The notes beneath the pieces were generated by a model. It searched no databases, was not told the origin of the DNA, and worked only from the letters and a program-made list of their open reading frames with translations. From Crocinitomicaceae bacterium (GTDB lineage: Bacteria; Bacteroidota; Bacteroidia; Flavobacteriales_D; Crocinitomicaceae), in contig JANQWC010000026.1 in assembly GCA_030730025.1 (NCBI GenBank), positions 11,861 through 75,860 on the forward strand: 64,000 bases of DNA, read 5' to 3'. The translations under genes and the position numbers were made by a program. Below are positions 40,756 through 56,857 of this stretch, piece after piece (positions within the stretch are counted from its first letter, which is position 1; every line of letters starts with the position of its first letter).

Positions 40756-40763
40756 TATTTTTG
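40756..40763 (+). promoter_or_regulatory. -7 promoter element TATTTTTG of SusE/F-like gene
   Basis: Exact TAnnTTTG match 49 bases before the ATG, giving a leader of about 40 bases that is AT-rich. No -33 TTG at standard spacing. A palindromic motif (40769-40784) lies right at the expected transcription start. Confidence 0.45.
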
Positions 40764-40768
40764 AACTT

Positions 40769-40784
40769 GTCAATCTGACACTAA
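40769..40784 (+). promoter_or_regulatory. Candidate operator GTCAATCTGACACTAA (copy 1)
   Basis: Contains the inverted repeat GTCA/TGAC and agrees at 13 of 16 positions with the motif in front of susC (50464-50479). It overlaps the expected transcription start of the SusE/F-like gene. Regulator unknown. Confidence 0.35.
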
Positions 40785-40812
40785 GTATTATTAACCTATT
40801 AATTAATTAAGT

Positions 40813-41820
40813 ATGAAGAAAATTTTTACACTTCTAACGGCTCTTGTTTTAGGAGCTTCTGCCTTCGCACAATTTCCTGCGGTAGGTATCATCGGTTCTG
40901 CGGTTCCACCGTTTGACTGGTCTGTTGATGTCGACATGATCACTTTAGATGGTGAGATGTACGGCGCTATCGTTACTTGCGTTGCAGGTGAGGCTAAATT
41001 CCGTCAAGACGACGATTGGGCGATCAACTGGGGTGCTGCTGACTTCCCTGCAGGTGTTGGTGTACAAGATGGTGCAAACATTCCAGTTACTGATGGTACG
41101 TACATGGTCATCTTCAACCGCACAACAGGTATGTATAGCTTCCAAACAAGCTTTGACGTTACATACAAAGTAGACGTAACAAACTACCTTGCTGCAAACA
41201 CATTGGATGCAAACGGTTTGCGCGTTGGTGGTAACTTTACAGACAACGGTGCTACTGTAGCTGCTGGTGCTGTTGCAAACTGGTCTCCTGCAGATGCAAA
41301 CTCTGCAATGACTGACGAAGGCAACAACATCTGGGCAATTACTGTATCTTATCCAGTTGCTTCTATGGGTGCTACTCAATTCTACAAGTTCGTAAACGGT
41401 GACTGGGGTGCTAACGAAGGTACTGACGCTGCTAACACAATCGCAGTTGACTCATGTGGTGTTGACGATGGTGGTGGTAACATCAACCGTACTTACACTT
41501 TGATGCCTGGTACTGTATGTTACGTTTGGGATGCTTGTACAGCATGTGGTGTTTCAGTTGCTGAAAACGCAATTGCTAACCTTACTGTTGCTCCAAACCC
41601 TGCAACTGATGTAGTTAACTTCACTTTCGAAGCAAACAACGCTGCTGTTGCAACTGTAACAATCTTTGATCTTGCTGGTAAAGCTGTAGCTACTCAAACT
41701 GTTGCTACTTCTGCTACTACAACAGTAGAAATGAACACAACTGCATTGCAGGCTGGTTCTTACATCTACAATGTTGTTGCTGGTGACAAAGTTGCTACTG
41801 GTAAATTAATCAAGCAATAA
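40813..41820 (+). CDS. SusE/SusF-like starch-binding protein with T9SS sorting domain
   Basis: A 335-residue exported protein, signal peptide ending ASAFAQ. Residues about 22-115 resemble a SusE/SusF-type glycan-binding unit (GDDWAINWGAADFPAG-like: here DDWAINWGAADFPAGVG, after AGEAKFRQ). Residues about 117-240 form a second beta-sandwich with FYKFVNGDWGANEGTD. A T9SS type A domain (VAPNPATDVVNFTFEANN, ending GKLIKQ) closes the protein. Classical SusE/F are lipoproteins; this one is routed through T9SS. Codon use is extremely biased to GCT, GTT, ACT and AAC like tuf, so expression is probably very high. It has its own promoter element and a strong terminator. Binding specificity is inferred from the neighbours. 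Confidence 0.75.
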   Translation: MKKIFTLLTALVLGASAFAQFPAVGIIGSAVPPFDWSVDVDMITLDGEMYGAIVTCVAGEAKFRQDDDWAINWGAADFPAGVGVQDGANIPVTDGTYMVIFNRTTGMYSFQTSFDVTYKVDVTNYLAANTLDANGLRVGGNFTDNGATVAAGAVANWSPADANSAMTDEGNNIWAITVSYPVASMGATQFYKFVNGDWGANEGTDAANTIAVDSCGVDDGGGNINRTYTLMPGTVCYVWDACTACGVSVAENAIANLTVAPNPATDVVNFTFEANNAAVATVTIFDLAGKAVATQTVATSATTTVEMNTTALQAGSYIYNVVAGDKVATGKLIKQ

Positions 41821-41841: not shown

Positions 41842-41873
41842 AAAGCCTGGGTGAGTTTCACCCGGGCTTTTTT
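41842..41873 (+). terminator. Terminator after SusE/F-like gene
   Basis: A 12-bp stem AAGCCTGGGTGA/TCACCCGGGCTT with a three-base loop and six T. It should uncouple the very highly expressed first gene from the amylase gene downstream. Confidence 0.85.
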
Positions 41874-41908: not shown

Positions 41909-44692
41909 ATGAAAAAGCAGTTTCTTTTATCTATTGTTTTGATGATGCTCGACGGGTTTGTGAATGCACAAATCTTAGAAGTAAATCCTGTATTTCCAAC
42001 TGTAAATGATGTGGTAACCATCACGTATGATGCAACACAAGGAAATGCAGCGTTAGTAGGCCAAAATCAAATCTATGCCCACGCTGGGCTCATTACCTCT
42101 GCAAGTACATCGCCAACCAATTGGCAATTTGTACAAGGAAACTGGGGCACCGTAGACCCAGAAGTAACCATGACCAACATCGGTAACAACAAACACACCA
42201 TCACGATTGATATCGACCAATATTATGGTTTCCCGGTTGGCACAAACGTGTTGAAATTTGCTTTTGTTTTTAGAAATGCAGCCGGAACAATTGTAGGTCG
42301 CTCAGCAGATGGCAGTGATATCTATTACGACATCTACCCTGTGAATGCGGGTTTGTTGGCGCAGTTTTTTCATCCGAGCGCGGGCGCCATCCTAGATGTA
42401 AACGAGCAATTACAAGTAGAAGCCGCAGCCAATCAAAATGCTACCCTAACGCTCAAACAAGACGGCAACGTGCTGCAAACCTTAGCCAATGCCACCCAAC
42501 TCAATTACAACCTCACGGCTACCTCAGCTGGCACATACTTACTTGAATTCATTGCCGACAACGGCACAACACAAGTCATCGACTCGACTTATTTTACAGT
42601 GAACCCAGTGGTGGTTCCACAAAACCCCACTTATGCCAATTTGCAAAATGGCATCAACTACATCAACGACACCACTGTTGTGTTGCAATTATTTGCCCCT
42701 CAAAAAGAACACATTTACGTCATCGGCGACTTCAACAACTGGACGCCCACGGCCAACTATCATATGAACTTAGCTACCAATAACCAAACTTGGTGGTTAG
42801 AAATTACGGGGCTCAATCCCGGTCAAAAATATGGCTATCAATATTTCATAGATGGTAACATGCGTTTAGCAGACCCAATGAGCCCACTTATTTTGGATCC
42901 AAACAACGACAACAGCATCAATGCCCAAACGTATCCAAACCCACATCCTTATCCAACGGGCCAAACAACAGGTTTTGTAACGGTTTTGCAAACAGCGGCC
43001 ACGCCTTACGTTTGGTCTAGTACCGGCTTTACAGCACCCCAAAAGAAAGATTTAGTGATCTACGAATTGTTGGTAAGAGATTTCGTAGCGAAGCGCAATT
43101 ACCAAACACTTATCGATACGCTTGATTATTTGGACAAATTAGGAATCAATGCCATTGAACTCATGCCTCCTGGCGAGTTTGAAAACAACGAAAGTTGGGG
43201 TTACAACCCTTCTTTTCACATGGCGCTCGATAAATATTACGGTACGCCAGAAAAATTCAAGGAGTTTGTCGATTCTTGCCATGGCCGCGGCATTGCCGTG
43301 ATTGTCGATATGGTCCTCAACCACGCATTTGGGCAAAATCCCATGGTTAACATGTACTGGGATGCCGCAAATGCGCGCCCTGCAGCAAACAGTCCTTGGT
43401 TCAATGCCATTTGCCCGCACGAGCCCTACTGTTGGGGCTATGATTTTGACCATACCCGCCTGGCTACGCAAAACTATATTGACCAAGTGAACCGCTATTG
43501 GGTCGAGACCTACAATGTGGATGGCTTCCGCTTTGATTACACAAAAGGTTTTGTCAATAATGGCAATGGGTACAGCATGGAGCGCATCAATTTGCTCAAG
43601 CGAATGGCAGACGAAATCTGGAGCTACAAACCAGATGCGTATATCATTTTAGAACACTGGTGCGACAACGCCGAGGAAGAACAATTGGCAGACCACGGCA
43701 TGATGCTTTGGGGCAATGTTACCCACGGTTATCAGCAAGCCTTAATGGGCTTTACCAACTCCAGTAACATCAGTTCTGGTATTCACACCAACCGCGGTTG
43801 GTCGCTGCCGCATTTGGTTTCTTATGCCGAAAGCCACGACGAAGAGCGCACGATGTTTGAGGCACTTACTTACGGAAATAACACCAATGCCACGCACAAC
43901 GCCCGCAACTTGTATACCGCTCTTGGCCGTGCCCAAGGTTTGGCGGTCATTTTATTGACGCAACCAGGCCCCAAAATGCTTTGGCAGTTCCAAGAATTGG
44001 GCTACGACATCTCGATAGACAACCCTTGCCGGGTTTGCAATAAACCCATTTTATGGAACTATTACACTCAAGCGCGCCGCCGTCAACTCTACGATGTATA
44101 TGCCGCCACACTTTCCTTGCGCAACAACTACGAAACCTTCAGGTCATTGAACTTCCAGTACAACCTGACTGGCGCTGCCAAAAGAATGACCATGAGCCAT
44201 TCGAGCATGAATGGGGTGTCTATGGCGAACTTTGCGGTCAGCACGCAAAGTGTCATACCTGCTTTTCAGCATGCAGGGTGGTGGTATGAGTATTTCACCG
44301 GAGACAGCATCAATGTAACCAACGCACTGGCGCCGATCAGCCTAGTTGCTGGCGAATACCGCATCTATACAGACGTCAAGCTCGCACTTCCAGAAATTAC
44401 AGAAGCCCCAGCCTCCATAGAGGAAGTGTTGAATTCAACTTTTGAGTTGAAAGTGTTTCCTAATCCTTCGTCGCAACTCGCAACCATCAGTTTTCAGTCA
44501 AACGCCATTGCGCCTTATACCATTTTACTCTTAAACGAAGCAGGGCAGGTTGCGCTCCAAAGAAAGGGCAGCACCTCCATTGGTAAAAACGAAATCCAGT
44601 TGAGCGTGAACGAAATTGCTGCAGGTAACTATCATTTCTTGGTGAAAGTTGGCACGGCCATGGCCAATGAAGGCTTTGTCAAAGTTGATTAA
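41909..44692 (+). CDS. Secreted GH13 alpha-amylase with T9SS sorting domain
   Basis: A 927-residue extracellular alpha-glucan hydrolase. A signal peptide ends FVNAQ. N-terminal beta-sandwich modules include a CBM48/E-set region (residues about 240-330, with VIGDFNNWTP). The GH13 barrel follows: region I DMVLNH, region II GFRFDYTKG with nucleophile D543, region III IILEHW with acid/base E582, and region IV ESHDEER with D644. A T9SS domain ends the protein (VFPNPSSQLATISF ... GFVKVD). Classical sus loci use a lipoprotein amylase (SusG); here T9SS does that job. The ATG at 41909 follows an in-frame GTG. The CotH gene starts ten bases after its stop. Confidence 0.93.
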   Translation: MKKQFLLSIVLMMLDGFVNAQILEVNPVFPTVNDVVTITYDATQGNAALVGQNQIYAHAGLITSASTSPTNWQFVQGNWGTVDPEVTMTNIGNNKHTITIDIDQYYGFPVGTNVLKFAFVFRNAAGTIVGRSADGSDIYYDIYPVNAGLLAQFFHPSAGAILDVNEQLQVEAAANQNATLTLKQDGNVLQTLANATQLNYNLTATSAGTYLLEFIADNGTTQVIDSTYFTVNPVVVPQNPTYANLQNGINYINDTTVVLQLFAPQKEHIYVIGDFNNWTPTANYHMNLATNNQTWWLEITGLNPGQKYGYQYFIDGNMRLADPMSPLILDPNNDNSINAQTYPNPHPYPTGQTTGFVTVLQTAATPYVWSSTGFTAPQKKDLVIYELLVRDFVAKRNYQTLIDTLDYLDKLGINAIELMPPGEFENNESWGYNPSFHMALDKYYGTPEKFKEFVDSCHGRGIAVIVDMVLNHAFGQNPMVNMYWDAANARPAANSPWFNAICPHEPYCWGYDFDHTRLATQNYIDQVNRYWVETYNVDGFRFDYTKGFVNNGNGYSMERINLLKRMADEIWSYKPDAYIILEHWCDNAEEEQLADHGMMLWGNVTHGYQQALMGFTNSSNISSGIHTNRGWSLPHLVSYAESHDEERTMFEALTYGNNTNATHNARNLYTALGRAQGLAVILLTQPGPKMLWQFQELGYDISIDNPCRVCNKPILWNYYTQARRRQLYDVYAATLSLRNNYETFRSLNFQYNLTGAAKRMTMSHSSMNGVSMANFAVSTQSVIPAFQHAGWWYEYFTGDSINVTNALAPISLVAGEYRIYTDVKLALPEITEAPASIEEVLNSTFELKVFPNPSSQLATISFQSNAIAPYTILLLNEAGQVALQRKGSTSIGKNEIQLSVNEIAAGNYHFLVKVGTAMANEGFVKVD

Positions 44693-44702
44693 GCACTTTT
44701 TG

Positions 44703-46130
44703 ATGCGAAACGTCCTTTGTGCGCTTGTTGTCTTTTGGTTTGGAATTTCAGTTTTTCACGCTCAAATTCCACAGCCTGCTTACAACGCAGCTTTCCTTCA
44801 AAATGAAGTGGCTAGTGTTTATGTAGTGATAGAACCCGATTCTTTGAATTTATTATTGGGCGATAGTTTATACAGTGGTCATGAATTTATGGCGACCGTC
44901 ACCTATCAAAGTTCGGTTCTGAACCTCACCCTTGACAGCATTGGTTTTAGAGCCAGAGGAAATACATCTTTGGCTTCGCAAAAAAAGTCTTTCAAAGTAG
45001 ATTTCAACCGCTTTGTTGCTGGTCAAAAGTTTCAAGGTCTAGAAGAATTGAACTTGAATGGCGAACACAACGATGTGTCCATCATGCGTTCTTATCTTGC
45101 GCAGCAGCTTTTGCGTTCCGGGAATTTACCTTCTGCGCGCACAAGTTATGTTCAACTTTATATCAATAATGCATACAAGGGTTTGTATATCAATGTCGAA
45201 CACCTCGACGACGAATTCCTCGATTTGCGTTTTCCAAGCCAAGCCAACGGCAACCTTTGGAAATGTGCTTACGGCGCAGACCTAACTTGGTTGGGCACTA
45301 ATCCGGTCAACTACCAGAATACCTATGAGCTCAAAACCAATAAGGACAGCAATGATTATACAGCCCTTGTTCATTTTGTAGATGTACTCAACAATACGCC
45401 GTCGGGTAGTTTTGCTTGCGCGATACAAGAAGTGCTTGATGTGGATTTGTTCTTGCGCAATATTGCCATGGAAATCTTGATGGGGCAGTGGGATGGCTAC
45501 GCCTACAACAAAAACAATTACTATTTGTATCAGCGCGAAAGCGACGGCAAAATGGTTTATCTCTCTTATGATTTAGACAATACCTTTGGCATCGACTGGT
45601 TCAATATCAATTGGGCACTGCGCAATATTTATACGTGGTCTCCGGGTAACCAGAGTAGGCCTTTGTACAGCAAGCTTTTGGCGGTGCCGTATTTCAGAGA
45701 CCGCTTCACCTTTCACCTCAATGACATCCTTTCAAACGTTTGGAATGTCAGCACCCTGCAAACCGAACTCGAAGCGAAACAACAACTCATTTCTCCAGCA
45801 GCTTTACTTGACGACTACAAAGGATTGGATTACGGATTTAGCGATCAAGATTTTTCCATCGCGCTTCAACAAGCATGGGGTGCGCATGTCAAGTCTGGTA
45901 TTGTACCCTATTTGCAAAACCGCAAAACGAGCGCGCTTTCGCAGTTAAGTGCATATCAAGCCCTGCCCAATCCTTGTCAGTCAGGTCTCCAAGAAATTGC
46001 GGTTCCGTCCGGAAAATTACTTTACGTGACCGATATTTTGGGCAGAGAAATTGACCCAGCGGCCAAAAATTGCATTAAAATATTGAACTTTGAAAACGGA
46101 ACTCAACAGCGTATTTATGAAATGGATTAA
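44703..46130 (+). CDS. CotH kinase family protein, exported
   Basis: A 475-residue protein of the CotH family, atypical protein kinases first known from spore coats and common in T9SS-bearing bacteria. A signal peptide ends FHAQ. Family blocks: IGFRARGNTSLASQKKSFKV, NGEHNDVSIMRSYLAQQLL, INNAYKGLYINVEHLDDEFL, and the active-site-like region YLSYDLDNTFGIDW preceded by DGYAYNKNNYYLY. The C-terminus (ALPNPCQSG ... LYVTDILGREI) looks like a shortened T9SS sorting domain. It lies between two GH13 genes and overlaps the next one, so it belongs to the starch operon. Target and role are unknown. Confidence 0.87.
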   Translation: MRNVLCALVVFWFGISVFHAQIPQPAYNAAFLQNEVASVYVVIEPDSLNLLLGDSLYSGHEFMATVTYQSSVLNLTLDSIGFRARGNTSLASQKKSFKVDFNRFVAGQKFQGLEELNLNGEHNDVSIMRSYLAQQLLRSGNLPSARTSYVQLYINNAYKGLYINVEHLDDEFLDLRFPSQANGNLWKCAYGADLTWLGTNPVNYQNTYELKTNKDSNDYTALVHFVDVLNNTPSGSFACAIQEVLDVDLFLRNIAMEILMGQWDGYAYNKNNYYLYQRESDGKMVYLSYDLDNTFGIDWFNINWALRNIYTWSPGNQSRPLYSKLLAVPYFRDRFTFHLNDILSNVWNVSTLQTELEAKQQLISPAALLDDYKGLDYGFSDQDFSIALQQAWGAHVKSGIVPYLQNRKTSALSQLSAYQALPNPCQSGLQEIAVPSGKLLYVTDILGREIDPAAKNCIKILNFENGTQQRIYEMD

Positions 46131-50447: not shown

Positions 50448-50463
50448 AAAACTTTTTCTTTGT

Positions 50464-50479
50464 GTCAACTTGACATTAA
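50464..50479 (+). promoter_or_regulatory. Candidate operator GTCAACTTGACATTAA (copy 2)
   Basis: Contains the perfect inverted repeat GTCAA-C-TTGAC, overlapping the -33 box of the susC promoter. 13 of 16 positions match the motif at 40769-40784. Regulator unknown. Confidence 0.4.
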
Positions 50480-50499
50480 CAAAAAATCAAATATATTTG
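50470..50499 (+). promoter_or_regulatory. Promoter of susCD (TTG, N19, TATATTTG)
   Basis: A full two-box promoter: TTG at 50470-50472, a 19-base spacer and TATATTTG at 50492-50499. About 30 bases of leader precede the susC ATG. Confidence 0.75.
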
Positions 50500-50535: not shown

Positions 50536-53500
50536 ATGCAAAAACAAACTACTACAAGTTTTTTTGCCTTCTTGATGTTTTTTGGAATGTCGGTAGTGGC
50601 TATAGCCCAGACCGGAATTCGAGGAACCATCACAGACGCAGCTGGTGTTCCACTTTATAATGCTTCGGTATTGGTGGAAGGTCAGGGCAAGGGCGCTGTA
50701 TCCAATGAAAAAGGCTTTTACGAAATCACAGGCCTCAAAGCCGGAACTTACAATGTCATTTATAAGTTCATGGGTTTCAATCCACAATCTGATCAAGTAA
50801 CTGTTGTTGCCAACCAAATGGCGACCAACGACTTCCAATTTGCGTCTAGAACACAAGATGTAGGAGATGTCGTCGTGATTGGTTATGGTACCCAGCGCAC
50901 CAAAGACCTCACCGGTTCTGCCACGATCATCAACGAGAAAAACTTTGTGCAAGGTTCACTTGCTTCTCCAGAGCAACTCGTTATGGGTAAGGTTGCTGGT
51001 TTGAAAGTCACCTCCAACGATGGCGCCCCTGGTTCGGGAAGCACCCTTCGCTTGCGCGGTGGAACTTCCATCAATGCGTCCAACGACCCACTTATTGTTG
51101 TAGACGGTGTGCCGCTAGACAACGGCGGTATTGCTGGAGCAGCCAACCCATTATCATTGATCAACCCAAATGACATCGCTTCATTTGTCGTCTTGAAAGA
51201 TGCGTCAGCCACGGCTATTTATGGTTCGAGAGCAGCCAACGGCGTCATCCTCATCACCACTAAGCGCGGTTCTGCTTCAAACGATGTGAAAGTTGTATTG
51301 GATTCTAAAACTTCTGTTTCTACCATCGCAAAATATTTCGATGTACTCAGCGCCGACTCCCTTCGCAATCTTGTCAATGCCAGTGGCACAACTGCACAAA
51401 AAGCATTACTTGGCGATTCCAGTACAGATTGGCAAAAACAAGTATTCCGCTCTGCAGTCGTAACCGACAACAACGTTTCTATCACCGGTGGTATTAAAAA
51501 CTTCCCTTACCGTTTATCAATAGGTAACCGCATGGACAACGGTATCCTCAAAAGAGATCAATTTGCCCGTACAACTGTAAGCTTGAACATGAACCCAAGT
51601 TTATTAGACAAAACATTGCAAATCGAAGCCAACATGAAATACGTTCAAACAGCTTCTTTCTTTGCCAACCGCGGTGCACTTGGCGCAGCATTTTTTGATC
51701 CAACCCAACCGATTTATTCTGGCAACGAAGCCTACGGCGGTTATTTCGAATGGATCGACAACAACAAGCCAAATGTGCTTTCAGGACGCAATCCACTTGG
51801 CTTGATTGAACAGTCTACGGACCAAAGTAAAGTCAATCGTGCAATTGCCAATGCCAAACTTTCTTATCATCTTCCTTCTTTACCTGCTTTGAAAGCGACT
51901 GTAAACGTAGGTGGTGACTTCTCAGAAGGGACAGGCTACACCATTACACCAGCTTCTTCTGCATCTGGTTATTACACACAAGGGCGTTATTCAAATTACC
52001 GCACGACCAAAACCAATAAACTTTTTGAATCTTACTTGAGCTACAACTCTGGTGCTAAGTGGGAAAAACAAACATTGGAGATGGTTGCAGGTTACTCCTA
52101 CCAAGATTGGGATACCTATAGCCCTAACAACCCTACTTACAACGAAGCGCAAGATAGCGTCATTGCACCAGAAGCTGCATTTCCATTCTACACGCGCAAC
52201 GTACTCATGTCTTACTACGGACGTGCCATCTACAACTATGCAGGCAAATATGTAGTGAACGTTTCTGTTCGCCGAGATGGTTCTTCGCGCTTTAGCCCAG
52301 AAACACGTTGGGGTGTATTCCCTGCCGCATCTGCTGCTTGGCTTATTTCTGAAGAAGATTTCTTGAAAAAGAGCAAAGTAATCAACATGTTGAAACTTCG
52401 CGCAGGCTGGGGTATCACAGGTCAGCAAGACGGTATTGGTGACTACGCATATATTGGTAACTACTTCCAAGGTGCAACAACTGCTCAGTATGCTTTTGGT
52501 GGTCAGTACTACCAAGTATTGCGTCCGGCAGGTTTTGATGCAGGCCTTAAGTGGGAAACCACAACTTCTTATAACCTTGGTCTAGATTTTGGCTTCAAAA
52601 ACGACCGTTTCTCTGGAAGCCTTGATGTGTATCAAAAAGATACCCGCGATCTCCTTGCTACTGTCCCTGTTCCGGCCGGAACCAACTTTACCAACGAAAT
52701 TCTTACGAATGTTGGCGCCATGCAAAACCGCGGTGTTGAGGTTTCTATCAACACAGGCTTGATCGCTAAAAAAGACATGCGCCTAGATTGGTCCATCAAC
52801 GGTACTTATAACGTGAACACCGTTATCAAACTATCTCAAGTTGTTGACACAACATCTCCAGGTGTGTTGGTTGGTGGTATTGGTGGCGGTATTGGAAATA
52901 CCATCCAAGCGCATCAAGTAGGTTACCCAACTTACACTTTCTTTGTTCTTGAGCAACAATACGACTCACAAGGCCGTGTCATTGAAGTTGGCTCTTTGTC
53001 GGAAATCGACATGAACGGCGACGGTCAAGTGACAGCAGCAGATAAGTGGAAAGACACCAATGCGTTTGTCGATCAAAATGGCGACGGCATCATCAACGTC
53101 AAAGACCGCTATTACGCTGGTCAGGCCGCTCCAAAAATGTTCTTTGGTACAGCCTTGAACTTCCAGTACAAAAAATGGTATGCAGGTTTCTCTGCTCGTG
53201 CAGAAATGGGTGCTACCATCTATAACAACATCCACTCCAACAGCGCCGTTTTCCAAACCATCGACGGAACCAAAAAATACCTCAATAACATCAGTTCTTT
53301 GTACTACCAAGACGAAGTACAGCGCGTAACTGCAAGCCAGTTAATGAGTGATCACTACCTCGAGAAAGCAAATTTCTTGCGCGTGGACTTCATCAATGTA
53401 GGTTACAACTTTGGCAAGCTCGGCTTTGCAAAAGAAAAAGTGGGCCTCAATGCAAGTTTCGTTGTGCAAAATGCATTTGTTGTTACCAAATATTCTGGTC

Positions 53501-53586
53501 AAGATCCAGAGATTGGTGGTGGTATCGACAACAATTTCTACCCACGTCCACGCGTGTATTCAGTTAACTTAACATTTGATTTCTAA
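50536..53586 (+). CDS. SusC/RagA-type TonB-dependent transporter
   Basis: A 1016-residue outer-membrane importer for oligosaccharides powered by TonB. A signal peptide ends AIAQT. A carboxypeptidase-regulatory-like domain (residues about 25-105: IRGTITDAAGVPLYNASVLV) precedes the TonB-box-like DVVVIGYGTQ, the plug domain (DGVPLDNGG, ASATAIYGSRAANGVI) and a 22-strand barrel ending in NLTFDF with a terminal phenylalanine. Two EF-hand-like loops (DMNGDGQVTAAD and DQNGDGIINVKD) lie in a long extracellular loop. SusD follows after ten bases. Starch specificity is inferred from the neighbours. Confidence 0.95.
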   Translation: MQKQTTTSFFAFLMFFGMSVVAIAQTGIRGTITDAAGVPLYNASVLVEGQGKGAVSNEKGFYEITGLKAGTYNVIYKFMGFNPQSDQVTVVANQMATNDFQFASRTQDVGDVVVIGYGTQRTKDLTGSATIINEKNFVQGSLASPEQLVMGKVAGLKVTSNDGAPGSGSTLRLRGGTSINASNDPLIVVDGVPLDNGGIAGAANPLSLINPNDIASFVVLKDASATAIYGSRAANGVILITTKRGSASNDVKVVLDSKTSVSTIAKYFDVLSADSLRNLVNASGTTAQKALLGDSSTDWQKQVFRSAVVTDNNVSITGGIKNFPYRLSIGNRMDNGILKRDQFARTTVSLNMNPSLLDKTLQIEANMKYVQTASFFANRGALGAAFFDPTQPIYSGNEAYGGYFEWIDNNKPNVLSGRNPLGLIEQSTDQSKVNRAIANAKLSYHLPSLPALKATVNVGGDFSEGTGYTITPASSASGYYTQGRYSNYRTTKTNKLFESYLSYNSGAKWEKQTLEMVAGYSYQDWDTYSPNNPTYNEAQDSVIAPEAAFPFYTRNVLMSYYGRAIYNYAGKYVVNVSVRRDGSSRFSPETRWGVFPAASAAWLISEEDFLKKSKVINMLKLRAGWGITGQQDGIGDYAYIGNYFQGATTAQYAFGGQYYQVLRPAGFDAGLKWETTTSYNLGLDFGFKNDRFSGSLDVYQKDTRDLLATVPVPAGTNFTNEILTNVGAMQNRGVEVSINTGLIAKKDMRLDWSINGTYNVNTVIKLSQVVDTTSPGVLVGGIGGGIGNTIQAHQVGYPTYTFFVLEQQYDSQGRVIEVGSLSEIDMNGDGQVTAADKWKDTNAFVDQNGDGIINVKDRYYAGQAAPKMFFGTALNFQYKKWYAGFSARAEMGATIYNNIHSNSAVFQTIDGTKKYLNNISSLYYQDEVQRVTASQLMSDHYLEKANFLRVDFINVGYNFGKLGFAKEKVGLNASFVVQNAFVVTKYSGQDPEIGGGIDNNFYPRPRVYSVNLTFDF

Positions 53587-53596
53587 TTTTTGAACC

Positions 53597-55165
53597 ATGA
53601 AAAGATTAGTAGCTTATACCTTTATTGCCAGCGCTCTTTTATTAGGAGCCTGTGGCAAAAACTTGAATCAATCGCCTAAATACGGTCTCAATGCTGAGGC
53701 GGTCTACAGCGATTCCGATAACTACATCAAAGTACTAGCAAAATTGTACGCTGGCATGTCCATGACAGGTAACCAAGGCCCAGCCGGGCAAGCGGATATC
53801 GCTGGTATCGATGAGGGTTTTTCTGCGTATGTTCGCGTATTGTGGAACATGCAAGAGCTGCCTACCGACGAAGCAATTTGCGGTTGGAATGACCCAGGTA
53901 TTCCAGATCTCAACAAAACAGAATGGAACGCCGACAACGTGTGGGTAAAAGGAATGTATTACCGCATTTTTTACCAAATTACGCTTTGCAACGAATTCAT
54001 TTGGCAGTCGCGCGATGAAAAACTCAACGAACGTGGCTTTACACCTGCTCAGGTTTCAAGCATCGTCACCATGCGCAACGAAGCACGCTTTTTACGTGCC
54101 TTGGCTTACTACCACGCCATGGATTTATTTGGGAATGTACCATTTGTAACGGAAGAAGACCGCGTTGGTGCGTTCAATCCAGAGCAAATCATGCGCGCCG
54201 ATTTATTTGCCTACATCGAGTCTGAAATCAAAGCAATTGAAGATGAACTCACGCCTGCTGCAACTGTAGCTTATGGCCGTGCATCTCGCAGTGCTGCACA
54301 CGCACTCATGGCCAAAATGTATCTCAACGCCAAAGTTTACACTGGCACTGAGCGCAACAACGATTGTGCAACATATTGTGAGAAAATCATCAACACCAAT
54401 AGCTTTCAGCTAGACGACGTCTATCAAGATGTCTTTTTAGCAGACAACAACACTTCACCTGAAATCATCTTCCCAATTGTTTACGACGGCTTGTATTCGC
54501 AAACTTGGGGTGGAACAACCTTCATGATTTGCTCTGCTTTAGGAGGTTCTATGGTGGCCGCAGATTACGGTGTGAACGGCAAGTGGGCAGGTAACCGTGC
54601 TACCCGACCATTCATCGAGAAGTTCACTGACACTACCGAAGATTCACGTTGGATGTTCTACACTGCCGGACAACAAATCGATATCACCTCGATGAGTACG
54701 TTTACGCAAGGATACGGTAATCCAAAATACAAGAACAAAACCAAAGACGGTCTTAATGGTTCGAACAATGCAACCTCTGCGCACGTCGATGTAGATTTCC
54801 CGATGTTCCGTTTGGGCGATGTTTTCCTCATGTACGCTGAAGCGAAGTTCCGCTCCGGAGATGAAGCAACTGCACTCGTTTACATGAACAAAATTCGCGA
54901 ACGCGCCTACGGAGATGCCAACCACAACTATTCTGCTTTAGTACTCAATGATTTCATTGACGAACGCGCACGTGAATTGAACTGGGAGTGTACACGCCGT
55001 ACCGACCTCATTCGCTTTGATCTCTTCACGAGCAGTACTTATGTGTGGCCATTCAAAGGAGGCGACGCAGCTGGTCTTGGGGTAGATGATAAATACATTC
55101 TCTATCCAATTCCAACTTCAGATATCGTACTCAACCCGAATTTGCAACAGAATCCTGGTTTCTAA
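53597..55165 (+). CDS. SusD/RagB-type surface glycan-binding lipoprotein
   Basis: A 522-residue lid lipoprotein for the SusC transporter. The lipobox is LLLGAC. The TPR-rich SusD core is shown by RNEARFLRALAYYHAMDLFGNVPF and ASRSAAHALMAKMYL, and the C-terminal SusD domain by FRLGDVFLMYAEA and NWECTRRTDLIRF. It captures oligosaccharides and closes over SusC. Last gene of the locus on this strand; a terminator follows. A regulator (SusR-like or HTCS) and lipoprotein SusE/F genes are absent downstream. Confidence 0.95.
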   Translation: MKRLVAYTFIASALLLGACGKNLNQSPKYGLNAEAVYSDSDNYIKVLAKLYAGMSMTGNQGPAGQADIAGIDEGFSAYVRVLWNMQELPTDEAICGWNDPGIPDLNKTEWNADNVWVKGMYYRIFYQITLCNEFIWQSRDEKLNERGFTPAQVSSIVTMRNEARFLRALAYYHAMDLFGNVPFVTEEDRVGAFNPEQIMRADLFAYIESEIKAIEDELTPAATVAYGRASRSAAHALMAKMYLNAKVYTGTERNNDCATYCEKIINTNSFQLDDVYQDVFLADNNTSPEIIFPIVYDGLYSQTWGGTTFMICSALGGSMVAADYGVNGKWAGNRATRPFIEKFTDTTEDSRWMFYTAGQQIDITSMSTFTQGYGNPKYKNKTKDGLNGSNNATSAHVDVDFPMFRLGDVFLMYAEAKFRSGDEATALVYMNKIRERAYGDANHNYSALVLNDFIDERARELNWECTRRTDLIRFDLFTSSTYVWPFKGGDAAGLGVDDKYILYPIPTSDIVLNPNLQQNPGF

Positions 55166-55264: not shown

Positions 55265-56857
55265 CTACTCATTTTTAATCACTTTTTCATAGATGCCTTT
55301 GTTTGGCTCAGCAAGAAAGTATATGCCTGATTTGAGTTCTGTCAGATTGATTTGAATGGTATTTGATGCGTAAGGAATTGTCAAAATATTTTTTCCAAAT
55401 AAGTCAATTAAATATAATTCTCCGGGGTTTGTTAAACCGGAAATGGTCAGCACAGCTGCAGTTGGATTAGGAAACAATTTTAAAGACTTATTATTTAACT
55501 CGGAAATGCCCGCGGTACACGTACCAAACATATTGGCGTCCATCCAAGCAGTTCTGTTTTGAATCCAGGTTTTAAGGTAATTGATTTCCTCTTGATAAGT
55601 TTGTCCGATGAAATTGTTAGGCCACACGTAATTACCTAAAATTGGCCATTTTTGATAATGTCGCATGGCAGGAGTTTCTAGAAAATCTGCTGTAGTATCA
55701 ATGTAAGAAACAAGCGCTGAATCACTCAAAATAGTTTGTCTGAGCGTTGTCCAACGGCATTTTACGTCGTTGGCATATAGTGGATCTTCAAGTAAGCGTT
55801 TCCAATAAAATGGGTTTTGCCATTCCCCTCCACAATAGTCATTGAAATTGATTTCCCATCCAGATGTGAGTGATCCTTGGCAGTAATCGGCATTACCCCA
55901 AGCTATGTTGTAATCCCAAAGTGGACCAGCTACTAATTTTCCACCTTCGCTCATTCTTTGCTTGTGAAAGAACGCTGAGATACGGTAACCATCTACATTC
56001 TTTGAAAGCTCTGTTAGAAGAAAGTAGTCAATAAAAGAAGAAACGTCGATGTACGCCTTGTAACCATTAATAGGACTTGTAAAACTGCTGATTTTCAGTG
56101 CAACTTCCCAATCGGTGATGTAATCTTGAATGTAGGCCTTTTGTAAGGGGTGGAGCTCATTTAGCTTTGGGTCGTGAACTTGAAATTTGATTTGGGTATT
56201 TCCTGGAGCTTGACTTAAGTAAGGTGATGTCCAAGCGATTTCTCCTCCACCTGACGTTTTGTCAATCTTGACAATATAACCTCCTGTTAATTCATTTCCT
56301 AAGGTATCTTCGAAATTTAATTTGTCAATATGAACCCGACCTGGATTTTCTTTAATGCGTTCCATCATGACATAAACCCCGATATATGTGCCGTTAAGAA
56401 CTACTTCACAAAACTGTGTGCGAGGTGCCCAGCGACCAAGTTCATTACCGAGTTTGTAGGTTAAAACATTTCGCATCAAGGATTTGTCTGTGTACGGCGC
56501 ATGTAATATAAAGTCATTGTCGGAAGGCCAGTCAAAGAGTGATACATTGAGGTTGCTTGAATCCGGGTTTCTGGTTTCTAAACCGTATGATTGTTGCGGA
56601 AACATACTTGAAGAGGAGCCTCGTGTTTCAATGCCAATGTGTCCATTATATAGATTAAATGAATCACTGATGTGATTGACTTGCCCGGGCCCATTGTAGA
56701 TGATGCCCATGAGGGCATCAATTTTGGGTTCGTCTTGAATGGCTAAACCATCGGTATCAATGACAACAATAGGTAGCGTAGAGCTCGTGAAGTTAACTTG
56801 CGCAAATGTGTTGAAAGAACTACTCAAAAAAGCTAAAAAGACAAGCCAAATTTTCAT
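55265..56857 (-). CDS. CotH kinase family protein with T9SS sorting domain
   Basis: A 530-residue exported CotH-like protein. A signal peptide ends TFAQ. Family blocks: IGIETRGSSSSMFPQQSYGL, HAPYTDKSLMRNVLTYKL, NGTYIGVYVMMERIKEN, and the active-site-like GPLWDYNIAWGNADY. A T9SS type A domain ends it (LFPNPTAAVLTISG ... YEKVIKNE). It differs strongly from the CotH in the starch locus (classic PLWDYN form here, YDLDNTFG there). It overlaps lnt by four bases. Base composition looks more AT-rich than its neighbours, which may point to transfer. Substrate is unknown. Confidence 0.9.
   Translation of the reverse strand: MKIWLVFLAFLSSSFNTFAQVNFTSSTLPIVVIDTDGLAIQDEPKIDALMGIIYNGPGQVNHISDSFNLYNGHIGIETRGSSSSMFPQQSYGLETRNPDSSNLNVSLFDWPSDNDFILHAPYTDKSLMRNVLTYKLGNELGRWAPRTQFCEVVLNGTYIGVYVMMERIKENPGRVHIDKLNFEDTLGNELTGGYIVKIDKTSGGGEIAWTSPYLSQAPGNTQIKFQVHDPKLNELHPLQKAYIQDYITDWEVALKISSFTSPINGYKAYIDVSSFIDYFLLTELSKNVDGYRISAFFHKQRMSEGGKLVAGPLWDYNIAWGNADYCQGSLTSGWEINFNDYCGGEWQNPFYWKRLLEDPLYANDVKCRWTTLRQTILSDSALVSYIDTTADFLETPAMRHYQKWPILGNYVWPNNFIGQTYQEEINYLKTWIQNRTAWMDANMFGTCTAGISELNNKSLKLFPNPTAAVLTISGLTNPGELYLIDLFGKNILTIPYASNTIQINLTELKSGIYFLAEPNKGIYEKVIKNE

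Follow-up and report, generated by a model that had tools for sequence, protein, structure and literature searches.

A predicted alpha-glucan-capture protein with a T9SS tail and ribosomal-protein-like codon bias in a starch locus of a Crocinitomicaceae bacterium

A 64,000-nucleotide stretch of DNA from a Crocinitomicaceae bacterium (the window; contig JANQWC010000026.1 of assembly GCA_030730025.1) carries a starch locus that opens with a gene for a protein of 335 amino acids, the target of this analysis. Does this gene encode a SusE/F-like binder that is exported by the T9SS and expressed far above the remainder of the locus, as an earlier note had proposed from the DNA letters? The gene order is rpoC, recG, accA, ispE, target, GH13 amylase, cotH, a cyclomaltodextrinase-like GH13 gene (SusA-like), GH31, susC, and susD, and relatives keep the target in synteny with the amylase, SusA-like, GH31, and SusCD genes. 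The amylase, which carries a CBM48 domain, and SusC/SusD are likely partners of the target (Table 1). Two CotH-kinase-like genes (44700-46130 and 55265-56857) flank portions of the locus, the first of which adjoins the amylase in most relatives with a locus long enough. The assembly comprises 1.78 Mb in 28 contigs and is 81% complete; the contig of the window has 137 kb. The nearest named relatives, with 90 to 95% identity in the target protein, are metagenome-assembled genomes labelled Crocinitomicaceae, Flavobacteriales, or Cryomorphaceae bacterium (two labels among the relatives, e.g., Chryseobacterium gleum, look like misnamed bins), and isolate names such as "pond" suggest that the closest ones are from freshwater.

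Table 1. Positions of the target, its parts, and associated features in the window
Feature	Position	Strand	Basis or remark
Putative -7 promoter element TATTTTTG	40756..40763	+	Invariant in 13/13 aligned orthologs
Palindromic operator-like site TTGTCA-ATC-TGACACTAAG, just 3' of the -7 element	40767..40785	+	Core GTCAnnnTGACACTAAG kept in relatives
Target ORF, 335 aa	40813-41820	+	Coordinates and frame verified
Signal peptide, residues 1-20 (...ASAFAQ, then FPAVG)	40813..40872	+	Sequence; no lipobox Cys
Module A, SusF_SusE/X25 starch-binding module, residues 21-114 (W36, K62, W69)	40873..41154	+	Fold and profiles
Module B, CBM20/X25-like starch-binding module, residues 114-246 (W157, K192, W198)	41152..41550	+	Fold and weak X25 matches
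Type A T9SS C-terminal domain, residues 259-335	41587..41817	+	TIGR04183, PF18962, fold
Intrinsic terminator stem, 13 pairs, then T tract	41842..41870	+	Stem prediction and ortholog alignment
T9SS GH13 amylase with CBM48	41909..44692	+	Pfam; ordinary codon use, CAI rank 187/388
Second operator copy TGTCAACTTGACATTAAC, upstream of susC	50463..50480	+	Motif match
susC and susD	50536..55165	+	Raised codon bias, CAI ranks 46 and 56/388

Codon usage of the target gene and its relatives

The ribosomal-protein-like codon bias that had been claimed for the target was indeed found. With a CAI of 0.819, the target was first among 42 genes of the window (tuf, 0.785), and since a CAI of 0.508 (standard deviation, 0.019) is expected from its own amino acids and background codon usage, the observed value has a z of 16. 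The flanking hydrolase genes, from which the target had been said to differ, were far lower (amylase, 0.506; GH31, 0.508), and ispE had a CAI of 0.491. We also took a genome sample of 464 kb (26% of the assembly) and scored its 388 open reading frames no shorter than 300 bases against 29 ribosomal-protein genes, each of which was left out in turn when scored. Here, the target had a CAI of 0.853 and rank 1, with tuf at 0.815 and rank 2 and a median of 0.578; in codon adaptation it exceeded tuf and every ribosomal protein in the sample. An amino-acid-conditional log-likelihood measure again gave rank 1 of 388, with a z of 12. The further claim that GCT, GTT, ACT, AAC, and GGT are used almost exclusively was right for AAC (96%) and GGT (91%) but went too far for Ala, Val, and Thr, where the bias is toward T- or A-ending codons (GCT, 58%; GTT, 62%; ACT, 57%; the remainder mostly A ending). 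Raised codon bias within the locus is not confined to the target and extends to susC and susD (ranks in Table 1).

Two trivial sources of the bias were rejected. An artefact of amino acid composition does not account for it, because the z values of 16 and 12 come from amino-acid-fixed controls. A general effect of T9SS tails was excluded as well: other open reading frames with a PNP motif near the C terminus, a filter that also picked up a few non-T9SS proteins such as rplA, ranked 14 to 236 of 388, and the tail is therefore not the cause of the target's bias. One gene with a T9SS tail, a paralog of 603 amino acids (L106:10706-12517, on G000:C12), has CAI rank 6 of 388; no operator match was found upstream of it and no convincing domain in it besides the tail, and its product is possibly a highly expressed T9SS cargo.

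All 31 full-length relatives had a codon bias of z 8.1 to 17.0 over their own loci, where 4-kb loci supply just one background gene, the codon weights are those of the window's genome and less apt for distant groups, and several entries are apparently duplicate records across two collections (identical CAI, e.g., in L009/L041 and L010/L040). Among relatives that have the B module only, z was at least 4 in 29 of 40; the other 11 (L021, L073, L074, L075, L079, L080, L081, L083, L084, L086, and L088) are mostly marine or divergent. Five marine relatives sharing the B module (L073, L074, L080, L086, and L088) show little or no codon bias and lack the operator described below, so strong expression does not characterise the family as a whole. 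The nine lipoprotein-type SusE proteins (L091:4000, L094, L095, and L097 to L102) had z values below 2. Taken as a proxy for abundance, the codon bias points to a target protein that would be made in very large amounts.

Modules, fold, and export tail

A search of the PDB with the single target sequence returned the tail and otherwise chance matches. An AlphaFold2 model built with 41 relatives had a mean pLDDT of 85.7 (mostly 80 to 96 in module B) and matched SusF with a Z of 11.6 and an rmsd of 12.4 over 165 residues, which indicates that the two modules stand in a different relative pose. In this model, residues 22 to 112 matched the Sca5 X25-2 domain (Z 10.0, rmsd 2.0), residues 112 to 241 the CBM20 region of glucoamylase (Z 9.3, rmsd 2.4 over 92 residues) and those of CGTases (Z about 9), and residues 249 to 335 T9SS C-terminal domains. 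Since Foldseek confounded the domains of the whole model, module A was modelled separately (pLDDT 96.8). The resemblance to starch-binding modules that had been suspected from sequence patterns was borne out by its best matches, which were SusF (Z 11.9, rmsd 2.1 over 91), Sca5 X25-2 (Z 10.3), and SusE (Z 9.5, rmsd 2.5 over 85). Next in the PDB came a pullulanase X25 and amylases active on starch; AMPK glycogen-binding modules scored much lower, followed by unrelated folds. Foldseek alone gave SusF at an E value of 0.011 and no better.

At the profile level, PF16411 (SusF_SusE) matches A modules in 22 of 27 members, and the window copy by itself falls under the cut-off (E = 0.0043). The family profile of module A matched BT3088 SGBPdex (4.6e-6) and Sca5 (0.003) in the PDB. 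The alignment places W36 opposite W620 and W69 opposite W661 of Sca5 X25-2a, where the Sca5 numbering was set from the Trp spacing of 41. These Trp positions are preserved across A modules. According to the Sca5/Sas20 study (PMC9112005), W620/W661 lie in the starch-binding site conserved with SusF, Sas20 mutants in the equivalent residues lose maltotriose binding, and isolated single X25 modules of Sca5 do not bind on their own. The conserved Trp positions hint indirectly that the target may bind starch or maltooligosaccharides.

Module B was harder to place. X25_BaPul_like matched it in 22 of 24 members, all weakly (window copy, E = 0.0017 and 18.8 bits, below the cut-off of 27), the CBM_20 profile gave weak matches in just 3 of 24 members (best E, 0.073), and a profile search of the PDB with module B returned no starch binder. 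The assignment of module B is therefore based on its fold and the weak X25 matches. The module repeats the spacing pattern of module A (W157, K192-F, W198), and these residues would correspond to CBM20 site 1. Of the SusE/F resemblance proposed for the whole binder, the part that covers residues 21 to 114 stands, and the second half is CBM20/X25-like and not SusE/F.

The T9SS tail was confirmed. It matched TIGR04183 (E = 1.3e-13, over the cut-off) and PF18962 (7.3e-12) at the very C-terminal end and resembled the C-terminal domain of mirolase with a Z of 11.4. The genome also encodes SprA (SprA_N, 519 bits) and PorU (NF033707, 1,241 bits; cut-off, 420). These features predict export of the target by the T9SS, probably to the cell surface.

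Is the target then a SusE/SusF protein? SusE/SusF are lipoproteins whose lipid anchor is an N-terminal Cys after the signal peptide, as given in PMC8211771. The target has no such Cys, and a lipobox-like match is absent from 31 of 31 full-length relatives. Among the Bacteroidales relatives, a Cys near residue 20 was seen by eye in 8 of 9 (L099 lacks its start), of which a simple lipobox pattern caught 4. The N-terminal Ig/FN3-like spacer (Ea) of SusE/SusF is missing as well: module A begins at residue 21, and PF14292, taken here as the spacer domain, is absent from the target protein according to Pfam and was found in lipoprotein relatives (L091:4000, L094, L095, L097, and L102). Moreover, the target gene does not follow susC-susD but lies upstream of amylase, cotH, susA, gh31, susC, and susD, whereas lipoprotein relatives L094 to L102 sit after susD; Bacteroidales relatives have both PF14292 and the position after susC-susD. 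What the target does share with SusE/SusF is the SusF_SusE/X25 beta-sandwich module (aligned family over the cut-off, window copy alone under it). Because lipid anchor, N-terminal spacer, and post-susD position are all missing, the target is not SusE/SusF proper; it is SusE/F-like in its presumed action, and we class it as a T9SS-tailed protein that combines a SusF_SusE/X25 module with a CBM20-like one.

In a survey of 21 genomes of the genus, A modules were present in 12. The window's genome and G022, G084, and G092 (these three 99 to 100% complete) had exactly one A module, in the orthologous reading frame, so that the T9SS form is the sole SusF_SusE module found in this lineage; with an assembly that is 81% complete, a lipoprotein SusE/F could be missing from the window's own genome. 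Three other genomes have reading frames of about 870 to 880 amino acids with one A module each (G139:C13:44662, G155:C23:22719, and G159:C54:10921). Saprospiraceae encode T9SS proteins with five or six tandem SusF_SusE modules (L089:5453, L090:1343, L091:7998, and L093:7992), and in locus L091 a lipoprotein SusE (L091:4000) lies near the six-module T9SS protein. In SusD-like proteins at L091:1550-3796 and L094:4601-6802, a SusF_SusE module is internal or terminal. A literature search over titles and abstract openings, with few subscription papers covered, returned no description of a T9SS-tailed protein that carries a SusE/F module, nor of the operator, and a search for expression or polysaccharide data in the family returned nothing on the target protein.

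Promoter region and a palindrome shared with carbon genes

The target had been credited with its own promoter element and a 12-bp terminator stem. A sigma-70 promoter scan upstream of the gene gave nothing above chance. All 13 aligned orthologs share a 5' block consisting of TATTTTTG and then TTGTCAnnnTGACACTAAG, and the sequence farther upstream is divergent. TATTTTTG fits TAnnTTTG, a Bacteroidota -7 consensus, and is read as a putative -7 element on that basis. The terminator stem proved to be one pair longer than claimed, and each of the 12 aligned orthologs can form 11 of the 13 pairs, with two positions altered on both sides.

The core GTCAnnnTGACACTAAG of the operator-like site was found, with at most one mismatch, upstream of every one of the 31 full-length relatives. 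It also precedes 27 of 41 relatives with the B module only, all 5 of the AAA type, and 4 of 12 with a single A module; the four single-A cases are short T9SS proteins. Among the relatives compared, it was absent upstream of all lipoproteins and of all proteins with five or six modules.

If the site is an operator, it may serve other genes as well. In the window's genome, the target, susC, and gdhA each have an exact match upstream, and sites with one mismatch occur near zwf-pgl-edd, eda, pdhA, and other genes (gene names were read from translations). With two mismatches, there were 22 matches compared to 13 in a reversed control, and such sites, e.g., that of a GH13/MFS locus on C4, are therefore weak. 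In 20 relatives of the genus plus the window's own genome, which had helped to define the motif, sites with a score of at least 15 of 20 preceded zwf in 15 of 18 loci (14 of 17 without the own genome), pdhA in 14 of 18 (13 of 17; one more locus scored 14), and eda in only half, 7 of 14 (6 of 13); 0 to 2 of 200 shuffled controls attained the score. The three zwf loci without a site are shorter, and at least some are cut near the start. The palindrome consensus CTTAGTGTCAnnnTGACACTAAG occurs at both operator sites of the window (Table 1) and also at L144:6486, L145:2831, L147:4141, and L149:4746. The genes that it precedes serve starch use and the Entner-Doudoroff pathway or encode pyruvate dehydrogenase and glutamate dehydrogenase. 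This points to a single carbon regulon in which a shared regulator would govern starch capture and central carbon metabolism. The CTTAGTGTCAnnnTGACACTAAG sites likely mark an uncharacterised carbon regulon.

Proposed function and comparison with known systems

With a probability of about 0.78, we take the target to be a very abundant, T9SS-exported alpha-glucan-capture protein that acts with the amylase and SusCD and takes the place of lipoprotein SusE/F. The Sec signal peptide would bring it into the periplasm, the type A C-terminal domain would route it through the SprA translocon, and PorU would be expected to cut off the tail, followed by fixation at the surface or release. The X25/SusF_SusE and CBM20/X25-like modules would grip alpha-1,4-glucan helices (starch or glycogen) and keep the bound substrate near the T9SS amylase encoded by the next gene and the SusC/SusD importer; the target would thereby substitute for the lipoproteins SusE/SusF of Bacteroidales. 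A regulator that recognises the palindrome probably acts on transcription at the +1 region, and the palindrome is common to the target, susC, and the Entner-Doudoroff (zwf-pgl-edd, eda) and pyruvate dehydrogenase genes.

Among the alternatives, release of the target as a diffusible scavenger that loads starch away from the cell is unlikely, although the protein is small, carries a tail and a Sec signal with no lipid anchor, and some T9SS cargo is known to be released: a released binder benefits competitors, and the genome encodes PorU, the sortase that anchors type A cargo. Still less probable is a main role in a coat or matrix, as a surface layer or adhesin whose starch-binding folds serve just as building blocks or attach the cells to algal or cyanobacterial particles. 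Surface-layer proteins do show extreme codon bias, T9SS export would fit, and relatives range from one to six modules, as adhesins often do, but the A modules preserve the binding-site Trp positions, the gene sits among amylase, SusA-like, GH31, and SusCD genes, and the operator is common to sugar catabolism genes. Very improbable is the view of the target as a common accessory SusE/F protein with a codon bias that stems from amino acid makeup, recent transfer, or mutational bias and not from expression: Ala, Gly, Val, Thr, and Asn, for which preferred codons differ most, are abundant in it, but the bias withstood both amino-acid-fixed controls, was retained in every full-length relative, and set the target apart from the other tail-like PNP-motif proteins.

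A wider form of the alpha-glucan-capture reading is tentative, with odds against it: in a freshwater lineage, a free T9SS starch-capture protein at ribosomal-protein-like levels would have replaced lipoprotein SusE/F and would form an alpha-glucan-absorbing coat or halo, and one operator would tie capture to the Entner-Doudoroff pathway, pyruvate dehydrogenase, and SusC as a single regulon. Few traits of uncultured freshwater Crocinitomicaceae are known. If protein abundance follows the codon usage, capture of starch or glycogen is a main task of these cells, and the data suggest heavy investment in extracellular capture of these polymers. The target would clearly exemplify a SusE/F-type binder that exchanged lipoprotein export for the T9SS, and with its two modules it would be a compact starch binder to study. 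Through the shared operator, carbon regulation in the group would become open to testing.

SusE and SusF of Bacteroides thetaiotaomicron (4FE9, 4FEM, and 4FCH) are the closest known systems. Module A has the same fold, and in both cases tandem starch-binding modules are encoded in a glycan-uptake locus with susC/susD. The target differs in that a T9SS tail replaces the lipid anchor, the N-terminal spacer is missing, the second module is of another kind, the gene is not immediately 3' of susD, and its codon bias is far above that of its own neighbours. FjDusE of Flavobacterium johnsoniae is, like the target, a flavobacterial SusE/F homolog with SusF-like modules; its description (PMC10316084) reports tight binding of dextran and weak binding of soluble starch and, unlike in the target, a predicted type II signal peptide and hence a lipoprotein, three binding modules plus an Ig domain, and a dextran locus. 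Sas20 and the Sca5 X25-2 module of Ruminococcus bromii (7RPY; PMC9112005) share the X25 module and its two Trp positions with the target but are Gram-positive amylosome parts held by cohesin/dockerin and not by a T9SS tail. The CBM20 domains of glucoamylase and CGTase (2VN4, 1CYG, and others) match module B with a Z of about 9 and 24 to 28% identity over about 92 to 94 residues; in contrast to these enzymes, module B has no catalytic domain and is fused to a T9SS tail.
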